DNA from: Acidithiobacillus acidisediminis
GTDB taxonomy: Bacteria > Pseudomonadota > Gammaproteobacteria > Acidithiobacillales > Acidithiobacillaceae
Assembly (NCBI RefSeq): GCF_023277115.1
Contig: NZ_JALQCS010000001.1
Coordinates: forward strand, 372,001-436,000
Length of the DNA: 64,000 nucleotides
Direction: 5' to 3'
Below the pieces are notes generated by a model. It made no database searches. It was not told the DNA's origin and saw only the letters and a list, made by a program, of their open reading frames with translations. Positions within the stretch are counted from its first letter, which is position 1, and each line of letters begins with the position of its first letter. Below are positions 24,446 to 44,658 of the stretch, one piece after another. The translations under genes were made by a program, and so were the position numbers.

Positions 24446-25309
24446 TCAAGAGCACGACGCCGCATCGTCCCCGAGGCCCAGACGTTGCCATAGCGCCTCG
24501 GCCTCCGCCGTATTGCGCCAGCGCAAACGCAACTCCCCGCCCTCGCCGCGCGCCGTCAATCGCACCGACAGGCCCAGAACGGACTCTATCTGCTGGCGCA
24601 ATGCATCCAGGTTGGGGTCTGCCCGGATGGACTTCGCGCTTTTATCCGCCTCCGCTTGCAAGCGCTGGACCAAGCGCTCTGTCTGGCGCACATTCAGCGC
24701 TCCGGCGACGATCTCGGCAGCGGCGCGGCGCTGTGCGGCAGGCGACAAGGACAACAAGGCGCGGGCATGACCCGCACTCAGGGCACCGGAAGCCAAATGC
24801 GGCGCCAGCGTGGCATCAAGACGGAGCAGACGCAGTTGATTACTAATGGCGGCACGCGAACGCCCCAGGGCCTGCGCCAAAGCCTCATGGCTGAGGCGAA
24901 ACTCTTCCACCAAGCGCTGCAAGGCAGCCGCTTCTTCCAGGGGGTCGAGATCCTGGCGCTGGATATTTTCGATGACGCCAATCACCAGGGCCTGTTGCTC
25001 CGATGCCTCACGGATCAGTGCGGGGATCTCGCGCAGGCCAGCGCGTTGTGCCGCCCGCCAGCGTCGTTCGCCAGCGAGAATTTCATAACGCCCGCCTGGC
25101 TCGGCACGGACCAGGATCGGCTGCAGCACGCCCTCCGCCCGAATCGAGTCGGCCAACTCGCTCAAGGCCACATCATCGAAGTGCTTGCGCGCCTGATGCA
25201 CTCCGGGATGCAACAGGTCCACAGGTAGGTGACGCAGGGTACTGGTTTCGCGGTTACCCGCAAACAGGGCATCCAAGCCCCGTCCCAAGGCGGCGGGTTT
25301 CTTACTCAC
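24446..25309 (-). CDS. parB: Chromosome-partitioning protein ParB (Spo0J)
   Basis: CTP-dependent DNA clamp that loads at parS sites and helps segregate the origin region. The 287-residue product starts with KKPAALGRGLDALFAG, has the CTP-binding ParB/Srx fold with ILAGERRWRAA near residue 80, the HTH region (RLSHEALAQALGRSRAAISN) and a C-terminal dimerisation segment. It overlaps parA by four bases. Three candidate parS sites occur in this window at 26820, 41749 and 43567. Confidence 0.96.
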   Translation of the reverse strand: MSKKPAALGRGLDALFAGNRETSTLRHLPVDLLHPGVHQARKHFDDVALSELADSIRAEGVLQPILVRAEPGGRYEILAGERRWRAAQRAGLREIPALIREASEQQALVIGVIENIQRQDLDPLEEAAALQRLVEEFRLSHEALAQALGRSRAAISNQLRLLRLDATLAPHLASGALSAGHARALLSLSPAAQRRAAAEIVAGALNVRQTERLVQRLQAEADKSAKSIRADPNLDALRQQIESVLGLSVRLTARGEGGELRLRWRNTAEAEALWQRLGLGDDAASCS

Positions 25310-26061
25310 GGGCGTTGCTCACGTTGGAGAAATTCTTGCGCAAGGAGACGATAGGCCTCAGCGCCTGCACACTGCGGATCGTAGTCGATGGCGGCACGCC
25401 CAAAACTCGGCGCCTCGGCCAAACGCACATTGCGCGGGACGATAACACGGTACAAGCGCTCGGGAAAATGCTGCTCCAACTCCCGACTGACCTCGGTGGT
25501 GAGACGATTACGCGCATCGAACATGGTGCGCAGCAGACCATCTACCTCCAGCCCTGGGTGCAATTGCGCCCGTACTCGCCGCAAGGTGTCGAGAAGTTGG
25601 GTGAGGCCCTCCAGGGCAAAATATTCACATTGCATGGGAATCAACACACGATCTGCCGCCACCAGGGCATTGAGGGTCAGCAGACCCAGGGAAGGGGGAC
25701 AGTCGATGAATACGTAATCCCAGTCCTGGGTTTGCTGCAGAGTGCGCCGCAAGCGAAATTCGCGCCCCTCCTTCCCAGCCAACTCCAACTCCAGCGCTGC
25801 CAGATCTGCACTGGCTGCCACCAGAGAGAGCGCTCCCCAGCTTTGCGCTACCGCCGCGAGATCCGCTTCTTCGAGCAACAAATGATAGACGTTGGGCCAA
25901 CGCCCTTTTTCGCCGCCCAGACCCGTAGTCGCATTACCCTGGGGATCGAGGTCGACCACGAGCACGCGCTTGCCCAAAGCAGCGAGGGCGGCAGCCAGAT
26001 TCACTGCCGTGGTCGTCTTTCCGACGCCACCTTTCTGGTTGGCTATGGCCACAACCCGCAT
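25306..26061 (-). CDS. parA: Chromosome-partitioning ATPase ParA (Soj)
   Basis: Walker-type ATPase that moves ParB-parS complexes over the nucleoid. The 251-residue product begins RVVAIANQKGGVGKTTTAVN, the deviant Walker A with the signature Lys, then VLVVDLDPQGNATTGLG and the Walker B region FIDCPPSLGLLT. It lacks the N-terminal HTH of plasmid type Ia ParA proteins, as expected for the chromosomal type. It lies three bases after rsmG and overlaps parB. Confidence 0.96.
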   Translation of the reverse strand: MRVVAIANQKGGVGKTTTAVNLAAALAALGKRVLVVDLDPQGNATTGLGGEKGRWPNVYHLLLEEADLAAVAQSWGALSLVAASADLAALELELAGKEGREFRLRRTLQQTQDWDYVFIDCPPSLGLLTLNALVAADRVLIPMQCEYFALEGLTQLLDTLRRVRAQLHPGLEVDGLLRTMFDARNRLTTEVSRELEQHFPERLYRVIVPRNVRLAEAPSFGRAAIDYDPQCAGAEAYRLLAQEFLQREQRP

Positions 26062-26793: not shown

Positions 26794-28668
26794 TCAGCTC
26801 GCTGCGGCCCAGTGGTGACGTTTCACGTGAATCAGCAGAAGCGAGACCGCCGCCGGCGTGATGCCAGGGATCCGACTTGCCTCCCCCACCGTGCCCGGCT
26901 TTTGCCGCTGCAATCGCTGCCGCACCTCCGTGGAAAGGCCCGCAATCCGACCATAGTCGAGGTCTGCCGGAATCTCCATCGCCTCCCAGCGCAGGTTGCG
27001 CTCCACCTCTTCCACTTGGCGCTGCACATAGCCGGCATATTTGCAGTCGATTTCCAACACCGCCGCCAAGCTGGGGGGCAGCGGCTCCGCAACCGCACAA
27101 TCGGCAAGGAGATCTGCATATCCGATCTCTGGCCGCCGCAACAATTCCCACAGACTGTGGTCGCGCCGTAGCGGCTGCGGCAGACGCCCCATCAACCGCT
27201 GTGCCGCTGCCGAATCCGCACTGATGCGGATGGTTTCCAAGCGCTGCCGCTCGGCCTGCAGAGCGGACTGTTTCTCCCGGAAGCACTGCCAACGCCCCTC
27301 GTCGACCAAGCCCAACTCGCGTCCGACCGGCGTCAGGCGCTGGTCGGCATTGTCTTCGCGCAGGCGCAGGCGATACTCGGCGCGACTGGTAAACATGCGG
27401 TAGGGTTCATCCAATCCACGGGTGACGAGGTCGTCCACCATGACTCCGAGGTAGGCCTCGTGCCGACCTGGACACCAGCCTGCTTCCCCTCGTACCCAGC
27501 GTGCAGCATTGATGCCCGCAAGCAGGCCCTGCGCCGCTGCCTCCTCATAGCCCGTGGTCCCGTTGATCTGACCGGCACAGAAAAGTCCGCGCAGAAGCTG
27601 GCTCTGCAACTGCGGGGTCAGGGCGCGGGGGTCGAGATAGTCGTACTCGATGGCATAGCCCGGACGCAGCAAAATGGCGTTTTCCAGACCCTGCATACTG
27701 CGCACCAAGGCCTCCTGCACCGGGAAGGGAAGACTGGTAGAGATGCCGTTGGGGTAGACCTCGTGCGTACGTAAGCCTTCGGGCTCCAGGAAGATTTGGT
27801 GGGCTGCCTTGTCGGCGAAGCGCACGATCTTGTCTTCAATGGACGGGCAGTAGCGTGGTCCTTTCGACTGGATATGTCCGCCGTACATGGCCGAGTGTTG
27901 CAGATTGTCCGCGATGATGCGATGCGTCTCGGCATTGGTGTAGGTGATGTAGCAGGGGCGTTGCTCTACCTCAATATGGTCCGTGAGAAAAGAGAAGGGC
28001 GGTGCAGGATCGTCGCCGGGCTGCATTTCCAGCACTGAGTAATCGATACTGCGGCCGTCGATCCGTGGCGGCGTCCCGGTCTTCAGCCGCCCAACAGGAA
28101 ATTGTAGGGCGCGCAGACGCTCGGCGAGGGCGTTGGCCGGGGCATCGCCGGCCCGCCCAGCAGGAACGCTTTGATCGCCAATGTGGATGCGACCGGCGAG
28201 GAAGGTTCCCGTCGTCAGGACCACCGCCCGGGCGCGAAACTCCTGCCCATTCTCCAAACGCACTCCAGCCACGGCGTTATCTGCGACCAGTAGATCTCCG
28301 ACGCTGCCCTGAAAGATTTGCAGCGTCGGCAACTCCTCCAGCAACTCGCGCACCGCGAGTTTGTACAAGGTGCGATCTGCTTGCGCGCGGGTGGCACGCA
28401 CTGCCGGCCCCTTACGCGCATTGAGGATGCGAAACTGAATCCCGGCACGGTCGATGGCACGCGCCATGATGCCGCCGAGGGCGTCGATTTCCTTGACCAG
28501 ATGCCCTTTGCCAATGCCACCAATGGCCGGGTTGCAGGACATCTGCCCGATGGTATCGATATTTTGCGTGAGGAGCAGGCAGGAGGCACCACTGCGCGCA
28601 GCCGCCGCTGCTGCCTCGATACCGGCATGGCCCGCACCTACCACAATGACAGAAAAAGTGTTTTTCAT
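26794..28668 (-). CDS. mnmG: tRNA uridine-5-carboxymethylaminomethyl modification enzyme MnmG
   Basis: FAD enzyme that with MnmE modifies the wobble uridine (cmnm5U34) in several tRNAs. The 624-residue product starts with the FAD-binding [17 protein letters not shown], carries [22 protein letters not shown] near residue 45 (only part quoted: [13 protein letters not shown]), the second conserved [14 protein letters not shown], and the C-terminal helical domain. Length matches E. coli (629). It is the first gene of the run towards atp and is divergent from the PilZ gene. A parS-like 14-mer lies within its 3' end. Confidence 0.97.
26820..26833. other. parS-like site (one mismatch) inside mnmG
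   Basis: GTTTCACGTGAATC differs at one base from the palindromic parS core GTTTCACGTGAAAC. It lies in the last codons of mnmG, about 0.8 kb from parA. The other two candidates in this window are perfect. Confidence 0.6.
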
Positions 28669-30007: not shown

Positions 30008-31401
30008 CAATCCTCCAGATCCTCGTCGCCGCGGCGTTCGCCGCGCAGCCCAATGCCAAGATTCTTCAACTTTCGGTAGAGGTGGGTGCGCTCCAGCCCA
30101 GCGACTTCCGCAGTGCGTGCGATATTCCAGTCATTGCGGGCCAGGTGATATTCGAGAAAGGCGCGCTCGAAGCGCTCCCGCGCGCGTTTGAGGGTGCCGC
30201 CAAAATCCTCGGGGGAGGCATTGCCGAGTGGTGCCAAACGTTGATCCAGACCCAAGGCACCCTCGACCTCTTCGGCACTGACTTCTGGACCCTCGCTGAG
30301 GATCATCAGGCGCTCCACCAAGTTCTGCAGTTCCCGCACATTGCCGGGCCAGGGATAGTGGCGCAGGACCTCCATGGCCTCGGGCAAGAACTGACGTCGG
30401 CTCAGCCCATCGCGACGCCGATGTAGCGTCATGAATTCTTCGACAAGCTCGGGGATGTCGGCGCTGCGTTGCCCCAGGGTAGGCACATGCAAGGGGAGCG
30501 CTTGCAGGCGATAGAAAAGGTCCTGGCGGAAATTTCCTTCGGCTACGGCCTTCTGCAGATCTCGCGCGCTACCGGCAATGACCCGCACATCCACCGCCAC
30601 CGGTGTGGTCCCCCCTACCCGTAGGATGCGTCGCTCTTGCAGGGCAGAAACCAGGCGCGCCTGGCTTTCAAGATTCATGTCCGCAATTTCGTCGATAAAG
30701 AGTGTGCCGCCATGCGCCAACTCGAGGCGCCCACGTTGCACCCGCCCCCCTTCTTCGGCGCCAAAGAGTTCGACGGTGACATTGGGCTGGGCGATGACAG
30801 CGGCGCGCAGATCAATGAACGGGCCATCTGCTCGGCGGCTTTGGCGATGCAAATACCGTGCTGCGACTTCCTTGCCAGCGCCCGATTCCCCCAGCAACAG
30901 GACCCAGGAATCCACCGCCGCCACCCGTTTGAGCTGCTCGCGGAACTGCTGGATTGCCGCACTGTTACCCGTTGGCCGTTCGACCAACCCCGCCTGCGCA
31001 CGCAACTCGCGATTCTCGCGCTGTAGGCGGAACGCCTCCAAGGCATGACTGACGCTGAGCAGGGTCTTTTCAAGGGACAGGGGCTTTTCGATGAAATCGT
31101 AGGCACCCAGCTTGGTTGCCTGCACCGCAGTCTCGATCGTGCCGTGACCCGACATCATCACTACCGGCTGGTCGAGACCTGAAGCTGCAAGACGTTGCAG
31201 GAATTGCAGACCGTCCTCGCCCGGCATCCAGATATCCAATAGCAAGAGATCGAAGCTTCCATCCCGCAGCCGCGCCTCGGCCTCTGCTGCGCTAGCCGCC
31301 TGCTCGACCCGGTATCCTTCGTCTTCGAGGATATCGGCGACCGTGCTGCGAATGTCTGGTTCGTCGTCGATTACCAGAATACTGAGTCGTCTCGTTTCCA
31401 T
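30007..31401 (-). CDS. ntrX: NtrX-type response regulator with AAA+ domain
   Basis: Nitrogen-related response regulator paired with NtrY. The 464-residue product has a receiver (Asp56 in [13 protein letters not shown]; Lys in FIEKPLSLE), an AAA+ domain with Walker [11 protein letters not shown] and Walker [13 protein letters not shown], and a Fis-type HTH ([17 protein letters not shown]). The loop that normally reads ELFGHEKGAFTGA is [19 protein letters not shown] here, so the sigma-54-contacting GAFTGA motif is missing. It may therefore act without sigma-54, as reported for some NtrX proteins. ATG 31401 overlaps the ntrY stop by one base. Confidence 0.9.
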
Positions 31402-33620
31402 CACTCTTCCTCTGCCACCCCTGCTGGGAGGGGAAAACACATGCACACCCGGGCCCCCTGTGCGCCGTCCCGACTGCCCGCCTCAATCTGCCCACCGTGC
31501 TCTTCGACAATACGGCGGACAATGGCCAAGCCGAGACCCGAACCCTTGCTTTTACTGGTAACATAGGGCTCGAAGACGCGCGCGAGGAGTTCCGGCGGAA
31601 AACCGGGACCGTCATCCTCTACGATCCATTCTAGCATGCTCGGGTGGCGATCGAGAGCGAATCCTGTGCGAATCCAGATGTGTTTTGCCTCGTTTACTGC
31701 CTCGCCAGCAATGGCATCGAGGGCATTGCGGAGCAGGTTATTGAGAATCTGGCGCAGGCGGTGGGCATCGGCACGCAAAGGGGGGAGATCTGGCGCCAAG
31801 TCACAGCGGATCTCGACGCCGGTGCCCTGCCCCCGATAGAGTTCAACGATATCGGCAATGAGTGCATTCAGGTCAACGGGGCGCAGGTCCAGCTTTGGCG
31901 CCCGTGCGTATTCGGAAAACGCATCGACCAGGACCTTGAGGGCGTCAACCTGCTGGATGATGGTGTGCGTGGCCCGATCCAGGGTTTCGCCTTCACCCCC
32001 CAATTTTTCCAGATATTTGCGCCGCAGACGTTCGGCCGAGAGCTGAATGGGGGTCAGGGGATTTTTGATTTCGTGCGCCAGACGCCGCGCGACTTCCCCC
32101 CAGGCCGCACTACGCTGTGCGGCAACCAGCGGACTGATGTCATCAAAAACCAGGACAAAGCCTTCGGCGCCACCGAGCTCTGCAAAGCGGGCCCCGTGCA
32201 GAATCAAGGTTTGGGCACCCTCATTGCGGTCGATCTGCAACTCACGCTGCATGTCATTGCGTGGCTGTCGGATCCAGTCCTGGGCCTGGGCCCAGAACTC
32301 TGCCAGCTGTGGATCGCTCTCTGGATCCGGCAAGCCCGCATCGGTGAGACGCAGAATCTGGCGCGCCGCGGCATTGATTTCCGAGATTGCACCATTATTG
32401 GCAAAGATCAGGATGCCGCTGGAGATCTGCGCCAGAATCGTCTCCAGATAATAGCGGCGTTGCTCGGCCTCTTCCTGCGCCTTGGCAGCCTGCTGCTTGG
32501 CGCGGGCGAGCTGGCGCGTCATGTTATTGAAAGAATGCAGCAGAACGCCGAGTTCATCGTTGCTGGGAATGATCTGCAGCGGGATGAACTCCCCCCGGGC
32601 AACGGCTTGCGTCCCAGCCGCCAGGCGGGCAATGGGAGCGGTCAGGCGGCGCGCCAACAACAGGGCGATCCACAAGGCGGTCAAGGCGGTGAGCAGCAAG
32701 GCCACCGCCAGACTCATCTGGAAAGCCGTCTTCATCGGGTCGCGCATCAGGGTCAGCTGGCGGTAGCGATGATCAGCATTCTGCACCGCAGCGGCGGCAC
32801 GGCTGAACTGCTCCGGCACCACCTGTTCTACATAAAGCAGGCGGTTGCCCTGACCAAACTGGGGATTCATGACCGGGATCAGCACGCGTACGACGAGCTC
32901 GCCATGCACCGTCGCCATTTTCACCACCGGATGGTTTTCGTGCAGGGTGAGGAGAAGGTCGCGCGGAAGACGGGGGACGAGGGCGAGATTGTCGCTGCTG
33001 GTGGCGATGATCCGATTATTGCTGGAGAAGAGGGTGACACTGCTGAGACGAAATTGATCCCGCATCTGGATCACGGTAAGTACGGCGGCACTATCCGAGG
33101 ACCCGGTCAAGGCCTGGGCAATGGTTTCGGCCGATAGGAGGGTGCCGCTGCGATATCGTTCAACCCCGGCTTTTGCCACATCCACCGCCTGCTCCAAGGC
33201 ACTCTCCACCGCCGTACTGAGCCAGGAATTGATGCCCTGATTCAGGTAGTGCCAGGAGAACGCGAAGACCACCGCCGCCGGACTCAGACTCAGGATGGTG
33301 ATGATGACCACCAGGCGGGTAGCGAGCTGGCTACCGACCTCGCCGCGCCGCAGGCGCAGCAAGAGGCCAGCGATAGCCAACAGGACCAGGATCAGCAGCA
33401 GCAGGACGATCGCCGCTGAAGCCAACAGCATGGGCACAAAAAAGGGGCTTAGGGGACCGGCAGCACTGACAAAAAAGGTAAAGCCCAGGAAGGCCAGTAC
33501 CAATAGAATCAACAAGATCGCCCACCAGCGAGGGAATATCCGCACCGTTTCTTCGCTATCCGTTTGGCGCAAGGCGTGCAACCAACGTCGGCGTGGCGAG
33601 GGATGTTGGCGTTCGCTCAT
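31401..33620 (-). CDS. ntrY: NtrY-type sensor histidine kinase
   Basis: Large membrane kinase for NtrX. The 739-residue product has three or four membrane helices within about 30-120, a long periplasmic region, a further helix near 300, a HAMP domain, a PAS domain (about 385-495) and the kinase core with the phosphoacceptor in RRLAHEIKNPLTPIQLS and G box GSGLGLAIVRRIVEEHGG. This architecture and length match NtrY (about 740-770). Its start overlaps rsmB by four bases. Confidence 0.93.
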   Translation of the reverse strand: MSERQHPSPRRRWLHALRQTDSEETVRIFPRWWAILLILLVLAFLGFTFFVSAAGPLSPFFVPMLLASAAIVLLLLILVLLAIAGLLLRLRRGEVGSQLATRLVVIITILSLSPAAVVFAFSWHYLNQGINSWLSTAVESALEQAVDVAKAGVERYRSGTLLSAETIAQALTGSSDSAAVLTVIQMRDQFRLSSVTLFSSNNRIIATSSDNLALVPRLPRDLLLTLHENHPVVKMATVHGELVVRVLIPVMNPQFGQGNRLLYVEQVVPEQFSRAAAAVQNADHRYRQLTLMRDPMKTAFQMSLAVALLLTALTALWIALLLARRLTAPIARLAAGTQAVARGEFIPLQIIPSNDELGVLLHSFNNMTRQLARAKQQAAKAQEEAEQRRYYLETILAQISSGILIFANNGAISEINAAARQILRLTDAGLPDPESDPQLAEFWAQAQDWIRQPRNDMQRELQIDRNEGAQTLILHGARFAELGGAEGFVLVFDDISPLVAAQRSAAWGEVARRLAHEIKNPLTPIQLSAERLRRKYLEKLGGEGETLDRATHTIIQQVDALKVLVDAFSEYARAPKLDLRPVDLNALIADIVELYRGQGTGVEIRCDLAPDLPPLRADAHRLRQILNNLLRNALDAIAGEAVNEAKHIWIRTGFALDRHPSMLEWIVEDDGPGFPPELLARVFEPYVTSKSKGSGLGLAIVRRIVEEHGGQIEAGSRDGAQGARVCMCFPLPAGVAEEE

Positions 33621-34885
33621 GCCGCCTCGCCCGCGGCGGATTTGCGCAGCAGCGCATAGTAGAAACCATCCATTTCCTCTTGCCCAGGCAGGCGTTGCCC
33701 ACAGCGGGGATCATCCACCCGACAGGCATCTGCCTGTGTGTGCAAAAAGTCTTGCACCAGGAGCTCATTCTCCTCGGGAAGGAGCGAGCAGGTGGCGTAC
33801 AGCAGGCGTCCACCGGGGGCCAGGGCGGGCCAGACACCGCGCAGCAAACGCGCCTGCTCTTGACAAAGGCGCGGGAGATCCGGCGCATGATGGAGGATAT
33901 CGGGATGGCGGCGGATGATCCCCGTGGCGCTACAGGGGGCATCGAGCAGGATGGCGTGGAAAGGACGCCCATCCCAGTAGCTGCTGATTTGCGCCGCATC
34001 GGCCACGCGCGTCTGCGTGCTCAGCCCCTGCCGTTGCAGCGCCACCTCCAGGCGCTGCAAGCGCGGTGCCGCACTATCCAGTGCCAGCACGTCGTCCGCC
34101 CCCAGGCTCAACAAATGGGCCGTCTTGCCCCCCGGTGCCGCACAGGCATCCAGGATCCGTTCCCCGGCTTGCGGCGCAAGAATTTCCGCCGCCAACTGGG
34201 CCGCGCCATCCTGTACCGCTACCCAACCGTCCTCCCAGCCCGGGAGCTCACGTACCGGCAGACTCTGTGGCAAGATCAAGGCATCTGGCAGGGTGGCACA
34301 GCGCTGACTGGCGTGCCCTTGCTCCTGCAATAGCGCTTGGTACTGGTCACGGCTGATGCGCCGCCGATTGACCCGCAACCACAGGGGCGCCGCTTGCAGA
34401 TTGGCGCGCACGATAGTGGGCCAATCTGTCGGATATGCGTCTTGCAGGCGCTGCAGCAGCCAGTCTGGGTGCGAGGCGGAAACTGCGTCGGCATCGAGCC
34501 CTGGGCGCTCGCGCAGGTAGCGGCGTAGTACAGCGTTGATCAGCCCCTTGGCCCAGGATTTTCCCACTAGCTGACTGGCACTGACCCAGTCGTTGACGAT
34601 CGCAAAGTCTGGGCGTTGGCCATGCCGCAGCTCGAACAGGGCCAGTTGCAGCAAGGCAAGGATCTGCTCGTCCTGCTTTCCCGGGCGCAGTAGATGTTGC
34701 AAGAGCTCTTGCAGTATCCCGCTCTCGCGCAGGGCACCGCTGAGCAGCCATTGCAGGCTGGCTCGTTCGCTGCCGCGCAGGCCGGAACGATCCAGGAGAA
34801 AATCCAGGCGCTCCCCGGCCAATACCGCCGGGTAGACGGCCAAGGCAGCGCGGCGCAGGCGTGCGCCCTGCACGCCCTCGGTCAA
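33617..34885 (-). CDS. rsmB: 16S rRNA (cytosine-C5) methyltransferase RsmB
   Basis: SAM-dependent methylation of C967 in 16S rRNA. The 422-residue product has an N-terminal NusB-like RNA-binding domain (about 1-140) and a Rossmann methyltransferase domain with DACAAPGGKTAHLL, catalytic Cys in LLDAPCSATGI and the second Cys in YATCSLLPEEN. The frame is open far upstream into fmt, but the family start and the TTGA overlap with the fmt stop, with GAGAGG seven bases ahead, support TTG 34885. GTG 34873 is an alternative. Confidence 0.93.
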   Translation of the reverse strand: MTEGVQGARLRRAALAVYPAVLAGERLDFLLDRSGLRGSERASLQWLLSGALRESGILQELLQHLLRPGKQDEQILALLQLALFELRHGQRPDFAIVNDWVSASQLVGKSWAKGLINAVLRRYLRERPGLDADAVSASHPDWLLQRLQDAYPTDWPTIVRANLQAAPLWLRVNRRRISRDQYQALLQEQGHASQRCATLPDALILPQSLPVRELPGWEDGWVAVQDGAAQLAAEILAPQAGERILDACAAPGGKTAHLLSLGADDVLALDSAAPRLQRLEVALQRQGLSTQTRVADAAQISSYWDGRPFHAILLDAPCSATGIIRRHPDILHHAPDLPRLCQEQARLLRGVWPALAPGGRLLYATCSLLPEENELLVQDFLHTQADACRVDDPRCGQRLPGQEEMDGFYYALLRKSAAGEAA

Positions 34886-35817
34886 ACGAAGACCTCTCCC
34901 TCTTCGGGGCGGTATCCGCGCAGGAAATCTGCTCCCGCCAGCTGTCCTTTCCCGGCCGGCTGCAGGCGCGTCAGAATCAGGCTTCCCTGCCCACAGGCAA
35001 TCTCCGGCCCCTCTGCTCTGGCAGCGAGCAGCGCACCCGCCGTACCCCGGCCCGTTCCAATCTTTGCCGCCCAGACGCGCAACGGCTGACCGCGAAAGTG
35101 GCAATGGGCCACCGGATACGGGTTGAAGGCACGGATCAGACGCTCCAGCGTCTGCGCATCCTGCGACCAATCGATGCGCGCCTCCTCCTTGCGCAGCTTT
35201 TTGGCATAGCTGGCTTTTTCGTCATCTTGGGCTTCGGCGTGCAGTTCGCCACACCACAGCCGATCCAGCGCCTCCCCCAAGGCCTCCGCCCCGAGCTCCG
35301 CCAGACGATCATGCAGACTCGCGCCGGTATCGTTATCGCCGATCGGCGTTTTCCGCGTCCACAAAACTGGGCCAGTATCCAGGCCTGCCTCCATCTGCAT
35401 GATGCAAATTCCCGTTTCCGCATCCCCGGCAGCCAGGGCACGGACGATGGGAGCGGCACCCCGCCAGGCCGGGAGCAGGCTGGCATGGACGTTGATCGCA
35501 CCCAGGCGCGGGGTGTCCAGGATCGCTGCGGGCAAGATCTGACCAAAGGCAACGACGATGAGGAGATCTGGGTTCTGTTGGCGAAGCCAGTGCAAGGTTT
35601 CGGGAGCCCGGCTGGAGGCCGGCTGCAGCAGCGGGAGTCCGGCCTGCAGCGCCAAGGTCTTGACCGGACTGGCCTGCAGCCTGCGCCCGCGCCCCGCCGG
35701 CCGATCGGGCTGCGTCAGCACACCAACCACATCCTCCTGGCGCGCCAGGAGTCGCGCCAGGATGCGCTCGGCAAACTCCGGCGTACCGGCAAAGACGATG
35801 CGTCGGCCATCAGCCAT
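34882..35817 (-). CDS. fmt: Methionyl-tRNA formyltransferase
   Basis: Formylates initiator Met-tRNA with 10-formyl-THF. The 311-residue product starts with [11 protein letters not shown] and has the formyl-transfer motif [15 protein letters not shown] (catalytic Asn and His) near residue 107, then Asp in LDTGPVLW, and a C-terminal OB domain. It overlaps def by eight bases and rsmB by four. Confidence 0.97.
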
Positions 35818-36313
35818 GGTGACGGTTCCGCTTCTCCGCCTTGCGCCGAATCACGCTCTGCTTGAGGCGGGAAAGATGATCGACGAAAAGTACGCCATTC
35901 AGATGATCGATTTCGTGCTGCAGACAGACCGCCAGCAGACCATCCGCCTCCAGCTCCAGGATCTTGCCCGCAACATCCTGCGCGCGCACCGTAACCCGCT
36001 CAGCGCGTCGCACCGTCTCCAGCACGCCGGGAACAGACAGACAACCCTCCTGCATTTCTTCTTCCCCGGATTTGTGGATGATCTCCGGGTTGATCAGGGT
36101 CAGAAGCTCATTGCGCCCATCGGAAACGTCCACCACGATGAGTCGCTGTCCGGCCGCAACCTGGGGCGCTGCCAGCCCAATGCCTGGGGCATCGTACATG
36201 GTTTCGGCCATATCATCGGCCAGTTGGCGAATCTCCCGATCGATGCGCGCCACGGGCTGGGCCATGCCTTTGAGGCGGGTATCGGGATATTCGACGATTT
36301 TCAAAAGCGCCAT
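35810..36313 (-). CDS. def: Peptide deformylase
   Basis: Metalloenzyme that removes the formyl group from nascent proteins. The 167-residue product has all three motifs: [19 protein letters not shown] and the metal-binding [10 protein letters not shown]. Length matches E. coli (169). It is the first gene of def-fmt-rsmB-ntrY-ntrX-moaB and divergent from the LysM gene. Confidence 0.97.
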
Positions 36314-36388
36314 CGCATCACCGTTCTCGCAAAAATTGCTATCTTGGACTAATACTATGGGGCGCGGAAGTCCTGAGGAGAAGAGATC

Positions 36389-37441
36389 ATGCGGAAAAGT
36401 GTTGCGCCCCTGCTCGTCATCGGTGCCCTACTGGGTCCTCTGGCCCCAGGCGTCGCCTTGGCGCAACCGGCTGCGGAAACCCAGCAGCTGGGCAGTTATG
36501 TCGTTCAACCTGGTGATACCCTCTGGGGTATTGCGGCACATTTTCTCAAAAACCCTTGGGAATGGCCGAAAATCTGGCACGCCAATCCACAGATTCGGAA
36601 CCCGAACCTGATCTACCCGGGGGACCGCATCGTTTTATATCGTCTTCCCAACGGTGAGACGGCGGCAGAAGTCATTCCCTTGCAGCCCAGCCTGCGGGTA
36701 ACGGCGATTCCCAGCTACCACACCGGGATTATCATGCCCTTCCTGCACAGTCCCGCCATCATCAACAGCAAGAAGGACTATGACCGGCTACCCTATCTGG
36801 CAGCGGCATTGCATGAACGTCCAGCCTATACCGCCGGCGACCGGGTCTTTGTCAGTGGCTTGCGGGATGTGCCGGTGGGCACCCGCTACAGCATTGTACG
36901 ACTGGGCACCGTCTTGCATCGGCTGGCCGATCCCAAACCCCTGGGCTACAGCATGATCAATCTCGGTACGGCAGAATTGCTGCGCTCGGGCAGCGAGGCG
37001 GAGATCCGCATCACCTCGGCGCGGCGCGAGATCGAGCTGGGCGATCGTCTGGTTCCCATCAGCTCTAGTCCTACTCCGCATTACTTTCCGAGTACGCCGA
37101 AAGAGGCCGTTGCCGCACAGATCGTCGCCAAGATGAATAACGCCGAAGAGCTCACCGTGGGACAGGTAGTGGTGTTAGATCAAGGCGCCAATGCCGAGCT
37201 ACAACCAGGCAACGTACTGGAGATCGCAGATTCTGCGCGGATGAGCAAAAATGCCGTGACGGGAAAGAATTTTCCCCTGCCCCCGGAAAAAATTGGCACC
37301 GTGATGATCTTCCGGGTCTTTCCGCAGGTATCCTATGCCGTGATTACCTCGGCCACCCGTGGCATTCCCCTCGGCGCCAATATCTATTATCCCACCTCCG
37401 GACCGGCAAAACTGCGCCAAGAAGCCCAACTCACTCCTTGA
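36389..37441 (+). CDS. LysM-domain envelope protein
   Basis: The 350-residue product has a signal peptide ending near LAQPA and a LysM peptidoglycan-binding domain at about 35-88 ([17 protein letters not shown] ... PGDRIVLY). The rest has several beta-rich stretches of no recognised family. Such proteins commonly precede dprA in gammaproteobacteria and are thought to act at the cell wall. Its stop overlaps the dprA TTG (TTGA). GAGGAG lies about nine bases before the ATG. Confidence 0.85.
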
Positions 37442-38961: not shown

Positions 38962-41409
38962 ATGACGCAACTGTTGATTGTTGAGTCGCCGGCAAAGGCG
39001 AAGACCATCCAGAAATATCTGGGGGGAGATTTCACGGTGCTGGCCTCGTACGGCCATGTGCGTGATCTCCTGCCCAAGGAAGGTGCCGTCGATACGGAGC
39101 ACGACTTTGCCATGCGCTATGCGGAGATCGCGCGCAATGGCAAGCATGTCGATGCCATCGCCAGCGCCTTGCGCAAGGCCGATGGACTCTGGCTCGCCAC
39201 CGACCCGGATCGCGAGGGCGAGGCCATCTCCTGGCATCTGGTTGAACTACTGCAGCAAAAGAAGTTACTCGAGGGGAAGTCGATACAGAGGGTGGTCTTT
39301 CACGAAATTACCCCGCGCGCTGTCAAGGACGCCGTCGCGCACCCGCGCCAAATCGCCATGGATCTGGTCAACGCCCAGCAGGCGCGGCGCGCCCTCGATT
39401 ACCTGGTCGGTTTCAATCTCTCCCCCTTGTTGTGGCGCAAGGTGCGTCCGGGCTTGTCGGCGGGGCGGGTGCAGAGCGCTGCGCTGCGTATGATCTGCGA
39501 GCGTGAGGCCGAGATCCGCGCCTTTGTCGCGCAAGAATACTGGACCCTTAGCGCGCAATTGGAACAGGAAGAAAAGCGCTTTCCCGCCCGCTTGTCGCAG
39601 TGGCAACAAAAGAAGCTAGAGCAATTCGATATTACCAATGCGGCATCGGCCGAGGCCATCCGCGCCGAGATCCTTGCCGATCTCGAACGCCATCCGCTGC
39701 AGGTCAGCAAGGTCGAGCGCAAACAACGCCAGCGCCAGCCGGCCGCGCCCTTTACGACCTCCACCTTGCAGCAGGAGGCGTCGCGCAAGCTGGGCTTCAA
39801 CGCCAGTCGCACCATGCGCGTTGCGCAACAGCTCTATGAAGGGATCAGTGTGGGGAACGAGACCGTTGGTCTGATCACCTACATGCGTACCGATGCAGTG
39901 AATCTCTCGGAAGAGGCGATTGCCGCCCTGCGCGACTTTGTGCAGCAGCACTTTGGCGCGGAATATCTCCCGCCAGCAGCGCGGCGCTTCAAAACCAAGG
40001 CCAAGAACGCACAAGAGGCCCATGAAGCGATCCGCCCCACGGACATTCGTCGTCATCCTGATCAGCTGCAAGGCAGACTGGACAAGGATCAGTGGCGTCT
40101 GTACGACCTGATCTGGAAGCGCGCGGTGGCTTGCCAAATGGCTGCTGCCCAGCTGGATCTGGTCGCCGTGGACTTTGCAGCGGAGAGCCACTGGTTATTG
40201 CGCGCCAACGGCTCGACGGTAACCTTTCCCGGCTTCCTGGTCGTTTATCAGGAAGGGAAAGACGAACAGGAAGAAGAGGACGAACAGCGTCTCCTGCCCG
40301 CCCTGCAAGTGGGGGAGCAGCCGCTCTTCCACAGCCTCGATGCCGAGCAGCATTTCACCGAGCCACCACCGCGCTACAGCGACGCGAGCTTGGTCAAGAC
40401 CTTGGAGGCACATGGCATTGGCCGCCCCTCCACCTACGCGAGCATCATCCAGACCCTGCAGAATCGCGAGTATGTGGCGATCGAACAGCGCCGATTCCAT
40501 CCCACCGACCTGGGTGAAGTGGTCAATCAGTTCCTCGTGCAGCATTTCGATCAATACGTCGATTATGGCTTTACCGCGGAGCTGGAAGACCAACTCGACG
40601 CGATTTCCCGGGGCGAAAAACAGTGGCAACCGGTATTGAAGGAATTCTGGCAGCCCTTTCACCAGCGTCTGGAGGAAAAGGCCAATGTGAGTCGCTCCGA
40701 GGCGACGAGCGAGGCCATCGACGAAAACTGCCCCGACTGCGGCAAGCCTCTGCGCCTCAAGCTGGGACGCTACGGGCGCTTCATTTCTTGCAGTGGCTAT
40801 CCTGAGTGCAATTATGCCCGGCCCATCGACGGGCCGCGCGAGGCCCCGGAACCGGTCGGGCGAGATTGTCCAGACTGCGGCAAGGCCCTGGTCTATCGCC
40901 AGGGGCGCTACGGACGCTTCATATCCTGTAGTGGCTATCCGAGCTGTAAATACTTGGAGAGCTTGACGGCAGCCAAGTCGACGGGGGTCACCTGTCCCGA
41001 GTGTGGCAGTGGCGAATTGGTGGAAAAGCGCAGCCGCTATGGGAAGATTTTTTACTCCTGCAACACCTATCCCAAGTGCAAGTATGCGGTTTGGGGAGAG
41101 CCTGTTGCTCGCGCCTGTCCCCGCTGTGCCTGGCCTGTGCTCTACCGGAAAAGCACCAAGCGCCGCGGCGAGGAACTGGTCTGCCCGCAGGGGGATTGCG
41201 CCTTCCATTTTCCGGAGCAGGCCGAAGCAGCGGAAATCACCGAGCTCCTACAGGACTACCAGGCGCCAGAGCCCAACGACGAAAAGGCGGCGAGCACCGG
41301 CAAGCCCAGTGCCCGCCGCAGCAGGAGCGCTACCCCGGCGAAAAAACCCGCAAAGAAGACGGCTTCCGCGCGCGCCACCCGCAAGAAACCCAGCCCAGCC
41401 AAGGTTTGA
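38962..41409 (+). CDS. topA: DNA topoisomerase I
   Basis: Type IA topoisomerase relaxing negative supercoils. The 815-residue product has a Toprim domain (LLIVESPAKAKTI; TDPDREGEAISWHL), the active-site Tyr307 in GLITYMRTD, and GIGRPSTYASII. The C-terminus carries four zinc-ribbon-like units starting CPDCGKPLR, CPDCGKALV, CPECGSGEL and CPRCAWPVL, then a Lys/Ala-rich basic tail of about 45 residues (KKPAKKTA). The ATG follows smg by three bases. Confidence 0.96.
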   Translation: MTQLLIVESPAKAKTIQKYLGGDFTVLASYGHVRDLLPKEGAVDTEHDFAMRYAEIARNGKHVDAIASALRKADGLWLATDPDREGEAISWHLVELLQQKKLLEGKSIQRVVFHEITPRAVKDAVAHPRQIAMDLVNAQQARRALDYLVGFNLSPLLWRKVRPGLSAGRVQSAALRMICEREAEIRAFVAQEYWTLSAQLEQEEKRFPARLSQWQQKKLEQFDITNAASAEAIRAEILADLERHPLQVSKVERKQRQRQPAAPFTTSTLQQEASRKLGFNASRTMRVAQQLYEGISVGNETVGLITYMRTDAVNLSEEAIAALRDFVQQHFGAEYLPPAARRFKTKAKNAQEAHEAIRPTDIRRHPDQLQGRLDKDQWRLYDLIWKRAVACQMAAAQLDLVAVDFAAESHWLLRANGSTVTFPGFLVVYQEGKDEQEEEDEQRLLPALQVGEQPLFHSLDAEQHFTEPPPRYSDASLVKTLEAHGIGRPSTYASIIQTLQNREYVAIEQRRFHPTDLGEVVNQFLVQHFDQYVDYGFTAELEDQLDAISRGEKQWQPVLKEFWQPFHQRLEEKANVSRSEATSEAIDENCPDCGKPLRLKLGRYGRFISCSGYPECNYARPIDGPREAPEPVGRDCPDCGKALVYRQGRYGRFISCSGYPSCKYLESLTAAKSTGVTCPECGSGELVEKRSRYGKIFYSCNTYPKCKYAVWGEPVARACPRCAWPVLYRKSTKRRGEELVCPQGDCAFHFPEQAEAAEITELLQDYQAPEPNDEKAASTGKPSARRSRSATPAKKPAKKTASARATRKKPSPAKV

Positions 41410-41412
41410 TGT

Positions 41413-41745
41413 ATGACCTATGTCGTCACCGAAAACTGTATCGAATGTAAATACACCGACTGCGCCGAGGTATGCCCGGTCGAGTGTTTCCACGAGGGAC
41501 CGAATTTTCTGGTCATCGACCCCGTGGAATGTATCGATTGCGCCGCCTGTATACCCGAGTGTCCCGCCGACGCGATCTTCGCGGAGGATGAGGTCCCGGC
41601 AGATCAAAAGCACTTTACTGCCCTCAACGCCGAGCTGAGCCCACACTGGCCGGTCATTCTGCGCAAGAAGGAAGCCTTGCCCCATGCCGAGGAATTCAAA
41701 GGCAAGAAAGACAAGCTTCCTTTACTGCGGCGGGAGCGGCCCTAA
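41413..41745 (+). CDS. fdxA: Seven-iron ferredoxin (3Fe-4S/4Fe-4S)
   Basis: Small electron carrier. The 110-residue product reads like Azotobacter ferredoxin [19 protein letters not shown] supplies ligands of the 3Fe-4S and 4Fe-4S clusters, then [17 protein letters not shown]. The conserved long C-terminal tail ([11 protein letters not shown]) is present. It is three bases after topA, and its stop is followed within three bases by a parS site, then minC. The electron partner is unknown. Confidence 0.95.
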
Positions 41746-41748
41746 CGG

Positions 41749-41762
41749 GTTTCACGTGAAAC
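41749..41762. other. parS: Perfect parS site directly before minC
   Basis: GTTTCACGTGAAAC is the perfect 14-base palindromic core bound by ParB. It fills the gap between the fdxA stop and the minC ATG and abuts the ATG, where a ribosome site would normally be. ParB is encoded 16 kb away in this window. Confidence 0.88.
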
Positions 41763-42455
41763 ATGACCGCCAAAGCAAACCCATCGACCCTGCGTTTTAG
41801 TGGCGGCGTGTTCACCCTCAGTCTCCTGCACTTGCCGGATCAGGAGATGGGCAGTCCTCGCCAGGCGCTGGCAGCGCAAGGCACAGCCCTGCAATTATTA
41901 CGGGGCGCAGCCGTCGTCCTAGATCTCGCGGGGACCGATCCCGCACGGGTACCCGCCTATGCGGAGTGGCGCCAGAGCTTGCGCGAATTCGACTGCTTTT
42001 TGGTTGGGATACGAAACGCCAGCGATACCCAGGCTGCGGCAGCCGCGGCGCAAGGCTTGCCGCATTTGCGCGGCAATGAAACGAAGGAGGCGCCCCCTCC
42101 CAAAACGCCCCAGCCAGCGGGCGCAAGCTCCGGTACCGTACTCATCCAGCCACTGCGTTCCGGTCAACGCCACTATGGCCGTGGCGGCGACTTGGTATGT
42201 GTGGGGGCGGTGAATGCCGGGGCCGAGGTCCTGGCCGATGGCCATATTCATATCTACGGGCCCTTGCGCGGACGCGCCCTGGCCGGAGTACAAGGGGATG
42301 AGACGGCCAGGATCTTCTGTCAACGCCTGGAGGCCGAACTGATCGCCATCGCCGGGGTATATATGACGTTGGACGATACCCAACCCCTCTGGGGACAAGC
42401 CGCACAAGTTTCCCTCGCCGGCGAACACCTGCATATAATCCCTTTAGACAAATAG
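41763..42455 (+). CDS. minC: Septum-site inhibitor MinC
   Basis: Blocks FtsZ assembly away from midcell in complex with MinD. The 230-residue product has the N-terminal FtsZ-binding domain (STLRFSGGVFTLSLLHLPDQ is the start of the fold), a Pro/Ala linker near 105-120 and the C-terminal beta-helix domain (QPLRSGQRHYGRGGDLV; GAEVLADGHIHIYGPLRGRA). No Shine-Dalgarno sequence is visible because a parS palindrome occupies that position. It heads minC-minD-minE. Confidence 0.95.
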   Translation: MTAKANPSTLRFSGGVFTLSLLHLPDQEMGSPRQALAAQGTALQLLRGAAVVLDLAGTDPARVPAYAEWRQSLREFDCFLVGIRNASDTQAAAAAAQGLPHLRGNETKEAPPPKTPQPAGASSGTVLIQPLRSGQRHYGRGGDLVCVGAVNAGAEVLADGHIHIYGPLRGRALAGVQGDETARIFCQRLEAELIAIAGVYMTLDDTQPLWGQAAQVSLAGEHLHIIPLDK

Positions 42456-42466
42456 GAGAGAAACTC

Positions 42467-43276
42467 GTGGCCCAAACCGTCGTCGTCACCTCCGGCAAGG
42501 GAGGGGTGGGCAAGACCACCACCAGCGCCGCCTTTGCGAGCGGGCTCGCACAGCGCGGTCATCGCACCGTCGTCATCGACTTTGACGTCGGCCTGCGCAA
42601 TTTGGATCTGGTCATGGGCTGTGAGCGGCGCGTGGTCTACGACTTCATCAACGTCATCCAGGGCGAGGCGCGACTGCAACAGGCGTTGATCCGGGACAAG
42701 ATGCTCGACAACCTCTACATCCTCCCCACCTCGCAGACGCGGGATAAGGACGCCCTCACCGCTGACGGCGTGGCACGGGTCATGGATGAGCTACAAAAGG
42801 ATTTTGATTACATCGTTTGTGACTCCCCCGCTGGCATCGAGGCCGGCGCCCTGCGTGCCCTGTATCACGCCGACGCGGCGATTGTCGTGACCAATCCGGA
42901 AGTCTCCTCGGTACGCGACTCTGATCGCATCCTGGGCATCCTCGCCGCGCGCTCCAAACGCGCCGAGGAGGGCGCGGAACCGATCCGCGAGCACCTACTG
43001 CTTACCCGCTACGCCCCGAAACGCGTGCAGGGAGGGGAGATGCTCTCCCTTGATGACATTCAGGAACTGCTGCGCATCCCCCTCCTGGGAGTGATTCCGG
43101 AATCGGAGGTCATCCTCCAGGCATCCAACCAAGGCATTCCCGCAATCCATATGCAGGGGACGGACGTGTCCCATGCCTACGATGACGTGGTGGCGCGCTT
43201 TCTTGGCGAGGAGCGCCCTTTGCGCTTTGTTCAACCTGAAAAAAGCGGCTTTTTCAAGCGGCTTTTTGGAGGCTGA
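42467..43276 (+). CDS. minD: Septum-site ATPase MinD
   Basis: Membrane-associated ParA-like ATPase that recruits MinC and oscillates with MinE. The 269-residue product starts with VVVTSGKGGVGKTTTSAAFA (deviant Walker A), has VIDFDVGLRNLDLVMG and CDSPAGIEAGAL, and ends with the amphipathic membrane-targeting helix GFFKRLFGG. GTG start with AGGAG about nine bases ahead. It lies 11 bases after minC. Confidence 0.97.
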   Translation: MAQTVVVTSGKGGVGKTTTSAAFASGLAQRGHRTVVIDFDVGLRNLDLVMGCERRVVYDFINVIQGEARLQQALIRDKMLDNLYILPTSQTRDKDALTADGVARVMDELQKDFDYIVCDSPAGIEAGALRALYHADAAIVVTNPEVSSVRDSDRILGILAARSKRAEEGAEPIREHLLLTRYAPKRVQGGEMLSLDDIQELLRIPLLGVIPESEVILQASNQGIPAIHMQGTDVSHAYDDVVARFLGEERPLRFVQPEKSGFFKRLFGG

Positions 43277-43277
43277 G

Positions 43278-43529
43278 ATGTCCTTCCTCGACTATTTTCT
43301 GGGATCGCGCAAGAAGACCGCCACCGTCGCCAAGGATCGCCTGAAACTGATTCTCGCCCACGAACGCAGCGCCGACGCACCCGATTTTTTACCCGCCTTG
43401 CAGGCCGAATTGCTAACGGTGATCAGCAAATACATTCCCGTAGAACAGGACCAGATTTCCGTGCATATGGAACGACGCGGCGACTTTGAGGTCCTGGAAC
43501 TCAACATCCTCTTTCCCGAACAGCACTGA
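43278..43529 (+). CDS. minE: Cell-division topological factor MinE
   Basis: Stimulates MinD ATPase and confines MinCD to the poles. The 83-residue product starts MSFLDYFLGSRKKTATVAKD, has the anti-MinCD helix with RLKLILAHER and the dimerisation domain (ISKYIPVEQDQISVHMER). ATG 43278 was chosen, preceded by GGAGG; upstream in-frame codons overlap minD and are unrelated. Confidence 0.95.
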   Translation: MSFLDYFLGSRKKTATVAKDRLKLILAHERSADAPDFLPALQAELLTVISKYIPVEQDQISVHMERRGDFEVLELNILFPEQH

Positions 43530-43548: not shown

Positions 43549-44658
43549 ATGCGCAGACGACACCTGGTTTCACGTGAAACCAAGATGGCCGCGCAGTCGC
43601 GTCGCCGGGGCCTACCTCCCGGAACCCTCCTGGATAGCCAAGCGGGGCCTCTAGCCTCTTTGCGCCTGCTCCAGTACGGTGCGGAAAGTTATGCGGAAAT
43701 CCCCGAACCCAGCATTGCAAAGGCCGCTGCCAGCATAGCAGGACAAGCGGGTGTCACTTGGCTACATCTGCAGGGCGTGCCGCAACTCAGCCAGCTCGAA
43801 GAACTCGGCCAACACCTGCAAATCCACCCGCTCACCCTGGAAGACATTCAGAGTGGCTTCCACCAAGCCAAGCTGGAGATCTTCGACAACTACCTCTATC
43901 TGCGCTACGAGGTACTCCACAGCCATGGCGAAGAAATTGATGTCCACCCCTTTCATATTCTGTTGCAAGAGGGCCTGGTGATCAGTGTCGCGACGGGCAG
44001 ATACGACATCACCGAAAGCCTCTTACCGCGGCTGCAGAGCGCGCAATCGCGCCTGCGCCAACGTAGCGCGAGCTATCTCCTCTATGCGTTGCTCGACCTG
44101 GTCGTCGACCAGGCCTTCCCGGCCTTGCAGCATTTCACCGAACGAGTGGAGCGCCTCGAGGAGGATCTGCTGCTCCATACCCACAAGGACCAGCTTGCCG
44201 CCATTCAGCAGACAAAGCGCGATCTTCTCCTCTTCAATCATGCCCTCTGGCCCATGCAGGAAACGGTCTCGCGCCTGAGCCACAGCATCGGCGAGCACCC
44301 GCTGCTTCGCCCGACGCTGCGCCCCTTTCTCAACGATCTCTACGATCACACCATCCAGTTGATGAGCTTGCTCAATAGCGAGCGCGATGTCGTCGGAGGC
44401 TTGATGGATATCTATCTGTCCATGGTCAACAACCGCCTGAGCGACATCATGCGGATATTGACCATCATCTCCACCATCTTCATCCCCCTCACCTTCATTA
44501 CCGGCATCTACGGCATGAATATTGATGGCATTCCCCTGTTACATTATCGATATGGTTACGATATCGTCGTCGGGTTCATGTGGCTGGTCGCCGTGGCGAT
44601 GCTCTCGTATTTCCGCCGTCGCGGCTGGATTTTTCAAGGCCAAGGAAAAGGCAAATAG
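43549..44658 (+). CDS. corA: CorA-type divalent cation transporter
   Basis: Inner-membrane Mg2+/Co2+ channel, or the related Zn2+ exporter ZntB. The 369-residue product has a large N-terminal cytoplasmic domain, the long stalk helix (about 250-305) and two C-terminal membrane helices around the YGMN signature (ITGIYGMNIDG). The ATG 43549 follows GGAGGG closely; codons 7-11 (VSRET) are a perfect parS site. A later ATG at 43585 has no ribosome site. It follows minE by 19 bases and is convergent with dhaM. Confidence 0.9.
   Translation: MRRRHLVSRETKMAAQSRRRGLPPGTLLDSQAGPLASLRLLQYGAESYAEIPEPSIAKAAASIAGQAGVTWLHLQGVPQLSQLEELGQHLQIHPLTLEDIQSGFHQAKLEIFDNYLYLRYEVLHSHGEEIDVHPFHILLQEGLVISVATGRYDITESLLPRLQSAQSRLRQRSASYLLYALLDLVVDQAFPALQHFTERVERLEEDLLLHTHKDQLAAIQQTKRDLLLFNHALWPMQETVSRLSHSIGEHPLLRPTLRPFLNDLYDHTIQLMSLLNSERDVVGGLMDIYLSMVNNRLSDIMRILTIISTIFIPLTFITGIYGMNIDGIPLLHYRYGYDIVVGFMWLVAVAMLSYFRRRGWIFQGQGKGK
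43567..43580. other. parS: Perfect parS site in the 5' end of the corA-like gene
   Basis: GTTTCACGTGAAAC is identical to the site before minC 1.8 kb away. It encodes VSRET in codons 7-11 of the CorA-like protein, a region with no conservation constraint known to me, so DNA-level selection is likely. Confidence 0.88.

Follow-up and report, generated by a model that had tools for sequence, protein, structure and literature searches.

A predicted centromere site stands in the place of the minC ribosome site in the Acidithiobacillaceae

Introduction

How chromosome segregation is tied to the choice of the division site is an old question, and the usual answers to it are protein gradients or Noc-type proteins. 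The stretch of Acidithiobacillus acidisediminis DNA analyzed here (64,000 nucleotides, hereafter the window) raises this question in another form: directly in front of the division gene minC, a DNA segregation signal appears to occupy the place of a ribosome site. We asked whether this palindrome is a genuine parS, how it came to stand at the minC start codon, and whether its position there is likely to matter for the Min system.

A perfect parS abuts the minC start codon

The perfect parS 14-mer GTTTCACGTGAAAC covers positions 41749-41762 of the window and matches the parS core palindrome GTTNCACGTGNAAC at every position (it is given without strand, as are the other parS sites below). The minC ATG begins at 41763, which leaves a gap of zero between the two. 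Upstream, the ferredoxin gene that we call fdxA ends with a TAA stop codon at 41743-41745; this is followed by CGG alone and then by the palindrome. We assigned the ATG at 41763 as the minC start because the frame is closed upstream by an in-frame TGA codon within the 14-mer (41757-41759), and because the next in-frame ATG, GTG or TTG falls within the conserved MinC domain. A preliminary description of this DNA had placed a perfect parS palindrome directly 5' of the minC ATG and parB in the same window, and we found both to be correct.

The minC gene (41763-42455, + strand) encodes 230 residues and matched TIGR01222 (3.0e-48) and Pfam MinC_C (1.8e-30); its match to Pfam MinC_N (2.9e-4) was below the curated cut-off. 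It is followed by minD (42467-43276, + strand), which has a GTG start, the Shine-Dalgarno sequence AGGAG and Pfam ParA/MinD-type ATPase domains, its name resting on sequence and position. Next come minE (43278-43529, + strand; 83 residues; Pfam MinE, 3.6e-23) and a corA-like transporter gene (43549-44658, + strand; Pfam CorA, 2.4e-62). On the other side of minC, topA (38962-41409, + strand) is the first gene of a topA-fdxA-minCDE run, in which fdxA (41413-41745, + strand; Pfam Fer4 and DUF3470) ends 17 nt before the minC ATG. The same arrangement, topA-fdxA-parS-minC, was also seen in relatives, and fdxA and minC are likely to be co-transcribed. A consensus scan of the fdxA-minC gap revealed no promoter-like (sigma-70-like) or terminator-like site on the + strand. 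The parB gene (24446-25309, - strand) has a GTG start and matched Pfam ParB_N (1.1e-34) and HTH_ParB (4.6e-31), and parA (25306-26061, - strand) matched Pfam AAA_31 (1.1e-59). Names given without a Pfam match, such as topA, mnmG, rsmG, ntrY and DUF4390, are presumptive assignments from sequence.

parS copies in the genome and the ParB protein

The genome of 2.81 Mb, in 4 contigs, contains two perfect parS copies, at C1:413749 and C1:415567, which correspond to 41749 and 43567 of the window; by simple arithmetic, chance alone would give about 0.01 exact matches to a 14-mer in 2.8 Mb. Three sites in the genome had at most one mismatch, all of them in this window, and two copies with two mismatches were located far from it. 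The second perfect parS (43567-43580), which the preliminary description had missed, is 1.8 kb from the first, just after minE and within codons 7-11 (VSRET) of corA. With one perfect site before minC and the other after minE, the two thus bracket minCDE. The corA site was found at the same codons in 5 genomes of the genus (this one among them), with diverging neighbors, and it therefore appears to be a DNA signal written into the coding region. The third, parS-like site has one mismatch (26820-26833; GATTCACGTGAAAC in the mnmG sense) and lies at the 3' end of mnmG, beside parAB. This form of the 14-mer was present in 18 of 29 family genomes, and its position in mnmG was confirmed here and in the six relatives that were read. 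The dnaA gene lies at C1:463557-464846, 50 kb from the minC parS, and the corresponding distance was 10-45 kb in the six relatives for which it was computed (G002, G007, G013, G019, G022 and G023). The origin-proximal, few-copy character of chromosomal parS was therefore seen in this genome.

The ParB protein of the window matched solved ParB, Spo0J and Noc chains. According to PMC7383237, the residues that contact parS and their spacing separate parS-type proteins from Noc-type proteins (Q173 and R201). Upon alignment by eye, based on motif spacing, the window ParB showed GRSR, N, G and R at Caulobacter positions 170-173, 178, 201 and 204, respectively. The Noc-type Q173 and R201 were not seen in this alignment, R and G being present instead, and two residues were not those of the Caulobacter contact set, H standing for Q162 and R for K171. 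Judged by its sequence, the window ParB carries parS-type contact residues, with two other contact residues differing. We infer with high confidence that ParB would bind the minC parS and that this site would serve as a centromere.

The junction is conserved across the family

To describe the junction in relatives, we used a family set of 29 genomes from four genera. The fdxA-minC junction was readable in 28 of them, 17 of which belong to one genus; in the remaining genome (G001, 69% complete), minC lies off the contig. A script that accepted sites with at most one mismatch read 26 junctions, and the two that its fdxA filter had dropped (G004 and G005) were read by inspection. All 28 readable junctions contained such a site, and in all 28 it adjoined the minC ATG with a gap of 0. 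The site was perfect in 23 genomes and had one mismatch in five (G004, G005, G009, G010 and G012). In these five, the change was always in the left half, and GTGAAAC followed by ATG was invariant. The left-half changes represent about four events, G009 and G012 sharing one, which is too few for significance, and the change shared by G009 and G012 (GTTC) is a normal parS variant.

Over the 26 junctions read by script, the columns of the site carried 1.6-2.0 bits of information, and those just outside mostly carried less than 1 bit. The distance from fdxA to parS was 3, 4, 9, 15 or 16 nt in these junctions, whereas that from parS to the ATG was always 0. The minC product was 46-66% identical to ours in seven aligned relatives, and the length of its N-terminus varied. 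The preliminary description had proposed a comparison of this gap across relatives, and the comparison revealed the pattern of a chromosomal parS, a 14-mer kept against divergent flanks, in each of the 28 readable family genomes. These are not 28 independent cases, because all descend from one event.

We also looked at the other parS sites of the family. Three sites with at most one mismatch were present in 18 of the 29 genomes, and the number ranged from 1 to 4. Eleven further sites were read in relatives; ten of these were in the rsmB-DUF4390-kinase region, in some cases within codons, and the eleventh, in G026, was elsewhere. In 5 genomes of the genus, including ours, the corA site is found instead of a site in the rsmB-kinase region. 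The minC parS has thus kept its place better than the other origin-region site, which sits in different genes among relatives. In the window, histidine-kinase and rsmB-type genes were seen at 31401-35170, a region that often holds another parS in relatives. No parS was found at 33001-36500, which covers most of the rsmB-DUF4390-kinase region, even when four mismatches were accepted.

Comparison with minC loci outside the family

As a control, we used a class sample of 274 genomes, in which TIGR01222 found minC in 115, ours included. The parS core was present in 232 of the 274 genomes. Within up to 4 kb of minC, however, neither an exact parS nor one with one mismatch was found in any of the 114 other class loci (925 kb). 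These 114 control loci consist of 112 regions and two sister-family regions with flanks of 2.4-3.4 kb, and some regions end at contig ends; G076 was below the minC model cut-off, and second matches in G089 and G218 were left out. A second minC set, the best 80 of at least 543 matches, showed parS in none of the 75 non-family loci and a zero-gap junction in all five family loci. This set overlaps the first, as the five family loci (G005, G006, G008, G011 and G012) had already been included and part of the 75 are also among the 114. In the sister family, which is represented by two genomes, minC and parS are on different contigs, and in the one leader that was read (G029) AGGA precedes the minC ATG. 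Since the search gave no parS close to minC in the 114 other loci, those of the sister family included, a single origin of the parS-minC arrangement, in the ancestor of the Acidithiobacillaceae, is most likely.

The pairing of a parS with an ATG is more widespread than its pairing with minC, and a parS directly followed by ATG was found in 84 of the 274 class genomes. The last base of the wider 16-base parS consensus is A, and this probably accounts in part for the frequent occurrence of parS-ATG in the class. Among 30 class loci that were read, an open reading frame of at least 200 residues started at the parS-ATG in two, our minC and one gene of G178. We considered parS-ATG as a general gene-start device and rejected it on this count.

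minC has no Shine-Dalgarno sequence

The preliminary description had further stated that minC is without a Shine-Dalgarno sequence and that the parS constrains its translation. We measured leader strength as the duplex energy with the genome's own 16S tail, which here ends in GGATCACCTCCTTT (two copies). The minC leader gave -4.3 kcal/mol in our genome and -4.0 to -5.0 kcal/mol in 27 of the 28 family genomes, G028 being absent from these energies as its locus was too short. For 3000 random 20-mers drawn from these loci, the mean was -4.0 kcal/mol, and 44% were at -4.0 or lower. The minD leaders of the same 27 genomes ranged from -5.8 to -9.9 kcal/mol with a mean of -6.9 (-7.3 kcal/mol in our genome); in the run that included the random control, the means were -7.1 for minD (21 of 28 found) and -11.2 for minE (12 of 28 found). 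Pairing between the minC leader and the 16S tail was thus no better than chance in 27 of the 28 family genomes, and minC is truly without a Shine-Dalgarno sequence, as had been claimed. This is not unique to minC, because the fdxA leader was also weak, with a mean of -2.2 kcal/mol in 27 of 28 genomes. The claim of a constraint on translation also held, since the parS fills positions -14 to -1 and must therefore constrain how minC is translated. As fdxA is so close to minC, the arrangement suggests that translation of the two genes is coupled.

Role of the site at minC

We favor the reading that the 14-mer is a working ParABS parS near the origin, which settled on the place of the minC ribosome site in the ancestor of the Acidithiobacillaceae and stayed there, and we give this a probability of about 0.7. 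By its sequence, the 14-mer is a genuine family-wide centromere site that stands in place of the minC ribosome site; it would be an ordinary parS in an extraordinary place that is conserved family-wide. ParB clamps would load at this site, inside the topA-fdxA-minCDE gene run. Translation of minC would do without a Shine-Dalgarno sequence and most likely rely on ribosomes that have just completed fdxA, 17-30 nt upstream; the A-rich right half GTGAAAC beside the AUG would at best be a weak aid. With less certainty, ParB loaded at the minC parS may lower or time minCDE expression in cis. The observation made in the preliminary description was right, and stronger than stated, and its interpretation, a link in cis between chromosome segregation and division-site placement, is supported in part.

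The junction may have persisted with no cross-talk at all between the two systems. On this account, an ordinary parS landed once at minC, and as parS and the ATG are each needed, the junction stayed; we put this at somewhat under even odds. Exact abutment alone is no proof of joint function, because parS and the ATG are separately needed and can be parted solely by an insertion at their boundary. In a rough estimate of indel rates, the absence of such an insertion was not significant. Zero spacing was likewise considered as a proof of translational selection and rejected, as insertions at any one boundary are rare. An accidental landing is also consistent with the parS sites inside other genes, which are common here (corA, mnmG and the rsmB-kinase region), and with the 84 of 274 class genomes in which a parS is followed by ATG. 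However, the site remained at minC in 28 of 28 genomes while another site moved, minC was left without a normal ribosome site, and a reading frame of at least 200 residues started at parS-ATG in 2 of the 30 class loci read, ours included, all of which speaks against this account.

We consider it possible, but more tentatively, that the position itself has a regulatory function. ParB at the parS would then repress or time minCDE and make Min levels track the segregation of the origin, and the site would have been kept for this purpose as a dual-purpose element, both a centromere and a cis-control site of the division-site operon. The perfect minC site in 23 of 28 genomes, set against another origin-region site that shifts between genes among relatives, is consistent with such a function, as are the two perfect sites that bracket minCDE in this genome. 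Precedent from other bacteria for the regulation of parS neighbors by ParB is mixed. As described in PMC5521831, P. aeruginosa ParB represses the genes beside the intergenic parS3 and parS4 but not those beside the intragenic parS1 and parS2. Contacts between ParB and MinE and between ParA and MinC in P. aeruginosa (PMC9927451), and between ParB and MinC in Deinococcus (PMC7022226), show cross-talk of Par and Min proteins. In contrast, the genes beside parS were unchanged upon loss of Spo0J in B. subtilis and of ParB in S. pneumoniae (PMC7022226), and in Caulobacter a parS inserted near gyrB did not alter gyrB transcription (PMC5815017). The consensus scan of the fdxA-minC gap, which showed no promoter-like site, may also count against such regulation, as ParB would then need an upstream promoter or elongation as its target. 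If the regulatory function is real, ParB that loads where minC begins (and, in this genome, on either side of minCDE) would tie the supply of Min proteins to copy number and to segregation of the origin. An entire bacterial family would then have a fixed, DNA-borne connection between segregation and the placement of the Z ring. A single 14-base site makes a direct test of both segregation and Min levels possible.

It is improbable that the palindrome is kept mainly as RNA, with a 5-bp hairpin or a minimal Shine-Dalgarno sequence (GUGA) that sets the MinC level. The parS RNA can fold into the 5-bp hairpin GUUUC-ACGU-GAAAC (-4.0 kcal/mol), four nucleotides (GUGA) at -7 to -4 of minC match the 16S tail, in register with it when placed by hand, and GTGAAAC, the right half, does not vary even among the five one-mismatch sites. 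However, the GUGA match was no stronger than chance, and pairing with the 16S tail equaled that of random DNA; GUGA was rejected as a real Shine-Dalgarno sequence on this energy, despite its usable position and the invariant right half. The same palindrome is present in corA, where no gene starts, and the left-half changes, about four events among which the GTTC of G009 and G012 is a normal parS variant, are too few to give the invariant right half significance. Finally, the idea that the 14-mer is a chance palindrome or the operator of another factor was rejected as very improbable, given the exact ParB consensus, the parS-type ParB, its clustering with two further copies, within 65 kb of dnaA, and the conservation across the family.

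Comparison with known systems

We compared the predicted parS at minC with systems that are already known. The site resembles the chromosomal ParABS parS of Proteobacteria in its 14-mer core, its proximity to the origin, the parAB genes nearby and the small number of sites. The difference is that one site here appears to be fused to the minC start and to replace its ribosome site family-wide, so that the Min operon begins in physical union with a centromere site; none was found near minC in the 114 other class loci. The P. aeruginosa parS3 and parS4, which lie ahead of PA0011 and PA0013 (PMC5521831), are likewise upstream of a gene. Their neighbors are not Min genes, however, and the cloned upstream regions contain functional promoters, whereas the site described here abuts an ATG within a gene run.

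The Noc/NBS system of Bacillus is similar in that a ParB-family protein and DNA sites are tied to division (PMC7383237), but Noc binds the membrane and scattered NBS, not a site at a Min gene, and the window ParB has parS-type residues. The Par-Min protein contacts reported in PMC9927451 and PMC7022226 also link segregation with Min; here, the link would be a DNA arrangement and not a protein-protein contact. In titles and the openings of abstracts among the papers listed, we found no parS at a min operon, and an entry in the parS tables of Livny 2007 is possible. The main text of PMC10561277, which covers the nucleoid proteins of these bacteria, does not mention ParB, parS or MinC.

parS sites at other gene starts

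Two other genes were seen directly behind a parS. Outside the family, the parS of one G178 locus (L106, 2415-2428) abuts the ATG of a gene that resembles an ABC-transporter ATPase by sequence. Within the family, another parS in G005 (L047, 6647-6660) abuts the ATG of a sensor-kinase-like gene, which we take to be ntrY-like.
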